Under the pieces are notes generated by a model, which worked only from the letters and a program-made list of their open reading frames with translations, did not search any database and was not told the DNA's origin. From Bacilli bacterium (GTDB lineage Bacteria > Bacillota_I > Bacilli_A > RFN20 > CAG-826), in the NCBI GenBank assembly GCA_017635565.1, contig JAGBLE010000016.1:1-36812 (forward strand): a stretch of DNA of 36,812 nucleotides, written 5' to 3'. Below are positions 16,241-16,605 of this stretch, piece after piece (within the stretch, counting starts at the first letter, position 1; each line of letters opens with the position of its first letter). The position numbers were made by a program, and so were the translations under genes.

Positions 16241-16278
16241 ATCAAACATTTTTGTTTATTTTTGAAGAGGAGACCCTC

Positions 16279-16307
16279 TTGTATATTTGTTATCTAAATG
16301 CTATATT
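16279..16307 (+). promoter_or_regulatory. Possible plus-strand promoter for a short RNA
   Basis: TTGTAT (16279-16284), 17 bases, then TATATT (16302-16307) form a credible promoter inside the gap after the kinase gene. With the terminator at 16324-16356 it would make an RNA of about 40 bases convergent with the small minus-strand gene. This may be chance in AT-rich DNA. Confidence 0.3.
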
Positions 16308-16323
16308 CTTAATAGTGGTGTTT

Positions 16324-16356
16324 TGTTTCCCGGTTTTGTCCGAGAAACATTTTTTT
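16324..16356 (+). terminator. Intrinsic terminator downstream of the FGGY kinase gene
   Basis: TGTTTCCCGG (16324-16333) and CCGAGAAACA (16340-16349) form a 10-bp stem with one mismatch and a TTTTGT loop, followed by seven T. A second smaller hairpin, AAGAGG-AGAC-CCTCTT, sits at 16265-16280 without a good T-tract. The T-tract ends right at the stop codon of the small minus-strand ORF. Confidence 0.75.
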
Positions 16357-16357
16357 A

Positions 16358-16477
16358 TCACTTCCGGAGAAGGAGTATCACCAACAATAAGATGATAACA
16401 AGAATAACTAAGTATTCCATGTCACCTCTATAGCAAATAGGCAAATAACAAGAGAGTCGATTTATGGGACAGTCCAT
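16358..16477 (-). CDS. Candidate 39-residue single-pass membrane peptide (type I toxin-like)
   Basis: A short ORF on the minus strand. It begins at ATG 16477-16475, preceded five bases upstream by a near-perfect GAGGAGG. The N-terminal half is polar and cysteine-containing (MDCPINRLSC...). The last 20 residues are almost purely aliphatic: MEYLVILVIILLLVILLLRK, a single membrane helix with a basic end. That segment has its own ATG at 16420 with AGAGGTG just before it, so a 20-residue product is also possible. Composition resembles small toxic membrane peptides such as Ibs of enterobacteria; this is likeness, not proven homology. Two hairpins cover the ribosome binding site and start codon. It lies after the ABC operon terminator, so needs its own promoter, which is not obvious. 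Confidence 0.5.
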   Translation of the reverse strand: MDCPINRLSCYLPICYRGDMEYLVILVIILLLVILLLRK

Positions 16478-16508
16478 AAAAGCCTCCTCATTTAATAAAT
16501 AGAGGAAG
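16461..16508 (-). promoter_or_regulatory. Hairpins sequestering the ribosome binding site and start of the small ORF
   Basis: Read on the minus strand, CTTCCTC (16508-16502) pairs with the Shine-Dalgarno GAGGAGG (16489-16483), six Watson-Crick pairs plus one G-U, extended inward by ATTT/AAAT with one bulged base. A second stem, TTTATGG (16480-16474) with CCATAAA (16467-16461), contains the ATG. Such double masking would keep translation low until the RNA is remodelled. Confidence 0.6.
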
Positions 16509-16563
16509 AAAAGTGGAAAAATTTGAAAAAAAATTTAAAAATTATTCAAAAAAATTATTCAAG

Positions 16564-16589
16564 CAAAAAAAGACCTACAAAGTAGGTCT
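16564..16589 (-). terminator. Intrinsic terminator of the ABC exporter operon
   Basis: On the minus strand AGACCTAC (16589-16582) pairs perfectly with GTAGGTCT (16578-16571) around TTT, followed by a run of T. It lies 17 bases past the stop of the second ABC gene. Confidence 0.93.
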
Positions 16590-16605
16590 AATGTGATAAA
16601 ATTTA

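Follow-up and report, generated by a model that had tools for sequence, protein, structure and literature searches.

The 365-base gap (16241-16605) between the FGGY kinase and ABC genes in the window, a 36,812-nucleotide stretch of a Bacilli genome, probably carries a competence-controlled module resembling type I toxin-antitoxin systems, a reading to which we give a probability of roughly 0.6. The candidate toxin is a 20-codon membrane peptide gene that lies behind a putative promoter also found before dprA and other transformation genes, and it faces a short predicted antisense RNA. To judge by its features the module would work like a type I system, and its sequence places it in no named family.

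A small membrane peptide gene in the gap

The earlier note had described a minus-strand ORF of 39 codons hidden in this seemingly empty gap, and the sequence directly confirms the gap and the ORF (Table 1). The proposed 39-residue product is not borne out. Between the window and C20 copies of the gene the 19 upstream codons carry 4.7 nonsynonymous vs 0.3 synonymous changes, and the corresponding stretch in relatives lies in another frame or has a different sequence. The inner 20-codon ORF carries 1.0 nonsynonymous vs 2.0 synonymous changes between the same copies and is the one kept in relatives, where its homologues are ORFs of 20-26 residues (MELLVLLIVLLVVVGLLLKR and MELIVLLIVLLVVVGLLLKR in G002; METGSALACLILFVIALVVIVIIFKR and three variants in G015). 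The smaller claim that the gap holds a membrane peptide gene stands, as does that of an inner ATG with a ribosome binding site of its own.

Table 1. Features of the module, with positions counted from the first letter of the window
Feature	Positions	Strand	Remarks
Competence-regulon promoter motif (putative)	16483-16530	minus	core 24-mer TTTTCTTCCTCTATTTATTAAATG at 16489-16512, then AGGAGG
SD/anti-SD hairpin	16483-16508	minus	-8.8 kcal/mol; 5' arm overlaps promoter, role doubtful
GAGGAGG, strong SD of 39-codon ORF	16483-16489	minus	
Hairpin masking upstream AUG (39-codon start)	16461-16480	minus	-6.0 kcal/mol
39-codon ORF	16358-16477	minus	first 19 codons a leader, not conserved as protein
Leader arm of 5'-3' helix	16428-16458	minus	duplex -40.9, z -4.5, 0/300 shuffles
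GAGGTG, SD-like, of inner ATG	16424-16429	minus	
20-codon membrane peptide MEYLVILVIILLLVILLLRK	16358-16420	minus	inner ATG 16418-16420; homologous ORFs in G002, G015
3' UTR arm of 5'-3' helix	16264-16306	minus	ends in small hairpin 16265-16280
Antisense promoter-like TTGTAT-N17-TATATT, extended TG	16279-16307	plus	identical in three copies
Predicted antisense RNA, ~43 nt	16314-16356	plus	terminator hairpin 16324-16349, T7 16350-16356

Searching the own genome and its genus relatives yielded 28 peptide modules in three families (types 1 to 3, the window peptide being type 1), which look unrelated to one another, reach six or more copies per genome and turn over fast. Over type 1, 2 and 3 pairs, which are few and partly dependent, pN/pS is 0.36, 0.36 and 0.47, and by these substitution patterns the inner 20-codon peptide is under purifying selection. 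It has 20 residues, 16 of them aliphatic in a row, and a predicted membrane helix, which fits the single-helix form of fewer than 60 residues used to recognise type I toxins, and its C-terminus is of the RK/KR kind. Searches of Pfam, NCBIfam and Rfam returned no match of weight for the peptide or the module and no named toxin family (Ibs, Ldr, Hok or others), in line with the earlier note, which knew of no described family that fits.

A putative promoter shared with late competence genes

The anti-SD leader region pointed out in the earlier note is real as sequence; what that note missed is the regulon that shares it. A leader private to the toxin is ruled out, because dprA and other genes have this leader DNA in front of them as well. 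Exact copies of the 24-mer TTTTCTTCCTCTATTTATTAAATG with its G-rich stretch number 11 in the own genome (1.07 Mb, 73% complete; the window is contig C6), where one further copy has 3 mismatches, and the reversed control gave 0; together with the recurrence of the whole block in the genome and of the design in relatives, this takes the arrangement beyond chance. Directly after the promoter stand dprA, the genes of a C39 peptidase protein and of a thioredoxin-like lipoprotein before pcrA, two uncharacterised genes, a gene for a 60-residue GA-leader peptide followed by radC, three type 1 copies (the window peptide) and three copies of a type 2 membrane peptide (MEEAILLLLILCILVYMIKKSPSDNNR or one residue different).

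The exact 24-mer was found in none of the relatives and named genomes searched, a search outside which close records may fall, and this is consistent with a species-specific code. In relatives a motif built in the same way stands before both dprA and comEA, and its core is common within a species and differs between species (CTATTAAATAAGTGAGGAGG in G012 and CTCTTATATTTGTGAGGGG in G005, each shared by dprA and comEA). Scanning with a degenerate pattern gave up to 12 sites per genome (controls 0-2), and a second such pattern 15-18 sites in each of three related genomes (controls 0-1). The 78 distinct sites have in common a T-rich and then an A-rich tract, a TCGA-like box, an AT-rich stretch and TGAGG, with the box starting 13 bases before CTCT in 51 of them. 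Among the genes that follow are comEA-comEC, dprA, recA, the comG operon, a radC pair, a C39 peptidase gene and ABC genes, as well as RhuM-like genes and many small membrane peptides. We read this motif as the promoter of a competence regulon, shared between the peptide modules and late competence genes.

Several other genes carry the promoter of their species. Uncharacterised genes of 300-430 residues and RhuM-like genes do so (L024, L167, L268, L281, L282), and one copy on C21 (L045) stands before repeated ORFs that begin with a CPICG zinc-finger-like stretch (MESYKCPICGNTDIHSIG...), look cut short and gave no confident Pfam match. The 60-residue peptide with a GA-type leader (MKYELMTQEEMINEESGAAITLTAVMAVLATAVLAVIVYKLFLSKKGTATIPGGWKFTWN and relatives) is conserved, adjoins radC in the regulon (L038 on C1, L163, L172, L174, L256) and matches nothing in Pfam or NCBIfam; competence may induce it as a bacteriocin or signal, with the regulon's own C39 peptidase as its processing enzyme.

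With the C39 peptidase and a leader-peptide gene under the same promoter, the membrane peptides might themselves belong to a competence-linked bacteriocin or sibling-killing set, exported or released onto neighbours as are the competence-induced bacteriocins of streptococci. However, they are peptides of 20-27 residues, almost wholly hydrophobic, with neither a leader peptide nor a cleavage motif, and we consider it very unlikely that they act in this way.

The genome has three nearly identical copies of the window's peptide gene: two further, unrelated places carry the block 16260-16530 with 96% and 89% identity. At the same FGGY-ABC position the module was not found in the 15 relatives inspected, so it moves; judged by the kinase, the nearest named relatives are uncultured and for the most part MAGs from the rumen, with the labels Erysipelotrichaceae, Bacillales or Bacilli. 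On C20 (L044) a type 2 (5533, plus) and a type 1 module (8902, minus) face each other across an elongation factor G-like gene. A 270-base unit that is duplicated at unrelated intergenic places, in a neighbourhood that named relatives do not conserve, could also be a mobile or repetitive element with a promoter-like end, no product and an incidental ORF. Against such an element, its supposed end precedes conserved competence genes, in a species-specific form, across the whole genus, and the peptides keep a low pN/pS. The cross-species pattern thus already disfavours this explanation, which we think extremely improbable.

A candidate sigma factor at the sigH locus

If the motif is a promoter with its own code, a dedicated sigma factor would be expected to read it. 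Besides RpoD, several relatives encode a second sigma-70-type protein of ~200 residues, which is detected weakly in the own genome. In all eight genomes inspected its gene has the same position (cysS - rlmB/trmH - sigma - ECF transporter genes - truA), which is where sigH lies in many Firmicutes. The own-genome protein (C30:22056-22190, L193; relatives L194-L200) is encoded at cysS-rlmB and falls below the Pfam cut-off for region 2. Mean identity between the sigmas of the genus is 25% vs 72% for the neighbouring methyltransferase. Both a role in competence and fast evolution between species have been described for sigH (PMC3364868). By its locus and its divergence this fast-evolving SigH-like sigma is the likely reader of the competence promoter, and the rapid change of this sigma agrees with that of the promoter, although binding of the one to the other is our inference.

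Pairing of the 5' and 3' ends as a candidate translation lock

The earlier note had proposed that translation is masked twice, by a hairpin that pairs the SD with an anti-SD and by another that traps the AUG. The second of these was confirmed at exactly the bases given in Table 1, and G002 and G015 keep it, with altered sequence, in their type 1 copies. The upstream AUG and the hairpin around it persist in type 1 copies, and they may serve to couple or delay translation in the manner of hok, where an upstream ORF does so.

The SD/anti-SD hairpin is present as well, but we doubt that it serves as a dedicated switch. Its 5' arm is part of the promoter common to dprA and others, in the G015 peptide copies this arm varies without compensating change (energies from -14.8 to -5.3), the hairpin is weak in several other peptide leaders, and for several regulon genes GRGG is not the SD at all. 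It is thus probably not the switch, and we reject it in that role. The corresponding hairpins at dprA and comEA differ in sequence between species with pairing kept, and matched arms fold better than swapped ones (-8.32 vs -7.44, 0/200), a swap that mixes species. Where the upstream gene has no other terminator, the hairpin resembles its intrinsic terminator, as at comEA (AAAAACCTCC-N14-GGAGGTTTTT). At these two genes the competence promoter and the intrinsic terminator of the preceding gene, which is greA-like before comEA and rnhB-like before dprA (e.g. L120, L125, L080), appear to overlap, and the 3' arm of the hairpin appears to double as SD.

What the idea of a masked start had missed is a long complementarity between the leader and the 3' UTR. 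In the window it amounts to ~30 pairs, with a duplex energy of -40.9 vs -22.5 ± 4.1 for shuffled sequences (z -4.5), and the duplex reaches the SD of the 20-codon ORF. Type 1 duplexes elsewhere give z values of -5.7 and -5.3 with other sequences in G002 and of -2.3 to -2.9 in G015, and the pair adjoining the SD covaries (UGCUAUA/UAUAGCA in the own genome and G015, CUAUGUUAA/UUAACAUAG in G002). Many type 2 copies have a pair of 6-9 bp at similar distances (UUGUGGUUU/AAACCACAA, UGUGAUUU/AAAUCACA, UUCCAGGUU/AACCUGGAA), and type 3 has the short pair UUCAGUU/AACUGAA. In both of these families the energy of the leader/3' UTR duplex as a whole is mostly no better than chance and folding of the full-length mRNAs gave no uniform lock, so that only the short covarying pair argues for one there. 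With these limits, the 5'-3' complementarity is a stronger candidate for a translation lock than the SD hairpin.

Antisense signals at the peptide stop codon

In 27 of the 28 modules the opposite strand carries a hairpin of -8 kcal/mol or stronger, followed by T's, at the stop codon, and the sense strand has none at that level; the sense mRNA shows no clear terminator of its own. The stops of 141 long control ORFs have 13 antisense hairpins, only 2 of them without a sense terminator as well. The antisense stem sequences vary between copies and species. Promoter-like sites on the antisense strand lie at a regular distance in all 28 modules, with a mean score of 9.80 vs 8.19 ± 0.18 for shuffles (0/200); type 1 has TTGATT-N16-TATAAT in G015 and TTGTAT-N17-TATATT in the window, and types 2 and 3 mostly have TTGACA. 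Within the window the -35 is poor, matching 3/6, and the plus-strand hairpin has one C-A mismatch. A scan with a stricter consensus detected no sigma-70 promoter in the window, and its output did not include the plus-strand terminator, so that the case for the antisense RNA is drawn from conservation. This conservation supports the convergent promoter-terminator pair that the earlier note had proposed and, with the conserved peptide and the AUG hairpin, its suggestion of a type I toxin-like layout.

The peptides could instead be non-toxic membrane regulators or helpers of competence, as partners of the uptake machine or as closers of competence, which the antisense RNA only keeps off outside competence. 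A promoter identical to that of the uptake genes and purifying selection on the peptides would both be expected of such helpers. Three families that look unrelated, turn over fast and reach up to six or more copies in a genome would not, and layered control by antisense RNA and folding is elaborate for a plain helper; we regard this explanation as unlikely.

Proposed mechanism and significance

We favour a type I toxin-like module, which might operate as follows. At competence a SigH/ComX-like sigma would read the promoter at 16483-16530 together with those of dprA, radC and other transformation genes, and toxin-like mRNA would be made from several copies. The transcript would fold its 5' end onto its 3' end and so close the start region of the 20-residue peptide, while an antisense RNA of ~43 nt, made from a housekeeping-type promoter on the opposite strand and ending at the peptide stop codon, would pair with the 3' part of the mRNA and leave it silent or short-lived. 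Whenever the mRNA prevails over the antisense RNA or is trimmed at its 3' end, the peptide would be made and insert in the membrane, presumably with toxic effect. The biological point may be a growth pause, lysis or release of DNA in part of the competent cells.

More broadly, and with considerable doubt, this rumen Bacilli genus might couple transformation to many type I toxin-like peptides, with part of the competent cells being poisoned or lysed, thus releasing DNA or being forced into dormancy, and with promoter and sigma evolving jointly at such a pace that every species uses a code of its own. If this were true, DNA uptake would be linked to self-inflicted membrane damage or dormancy, there would be a reason why such peptides multiply in these genomes, and the promoter code could help to chart the competence regulons of uncultured Bacilli from the rumen. 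The genus would also provide an instance of a sigma factor that seems to evolve jointly with its promoter. In the literature searched, outside which many subscription papers lie, no report of type I toxin-like modules under a competence promoter was found.

Comparison with known systems

The peptides of the Ibs/Sib system are likewise of ~20 residues, almost all aliphatic and present in several copies per genome. IbsC needs few hydrophobic residues and, in contrast to the peptide described here, has no basic C-terminus (PMC8309996); our searches gave no sequence or Rfam match to this system. BsrG/SR4 of Bacillus subtilis shares an antisense RNA that acts via an overlapping 3' end and a basic C-terminus (PMC8309996, PMC10537873), but the antisense RNA predicted here is much shorter, the peptide has 20 residues and its control is different. 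As to Fst/par and Fst-Sm/srSm of enterococci and Streptococcus mutans, the modules described here have no APUU(A/V)GUU motif, no proline in the type 1 peptide, no shared bidirectional terminator and no T-run on the sense side, and they have a competence promoter; the peptides have no Pfam match, and we do not place them in the Fst family.

A close parallel in design is aapA/IsoA of Helicobacter pylori, with its small helical membrane peptide, C-terminal KR, early hairpins, antisense RNA and 5'-3' interaction that closes the SD (PMC6733600, PMC10537873). In aapA3 this interaction keeps the full-length mRNA inert until trimming of the 3' end activates it, and the antisense RNA must be absent for the active form to be seen (PMC6733600). 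Closure of the SD by the 5' and 3' ends is found computationally for type 1, with weak signs for types 2 and 3. Basic peptide ends matter in AapA1, where the C-terminal KR is needed for toxicity (PMC10537873), and in others (PMC10537873, PMC8309996). Unlike aapA/IsoA, to which we found no sequence relation, the module has its antisense RNA at the 3' side of the ORF and its mRNA promoter in a competence regulon.

The regulon itself resembles the SigH/ComX regulons of Lactobacillus sakei, staphylococci and streptococci, in which a fast-evolving alternative sigma encoded at the cysS locus controls com genes (PMC3364868). It differs from these in that the promoter varies from species to species within one genus and in that the regulon holds several type I-like peptide modules.
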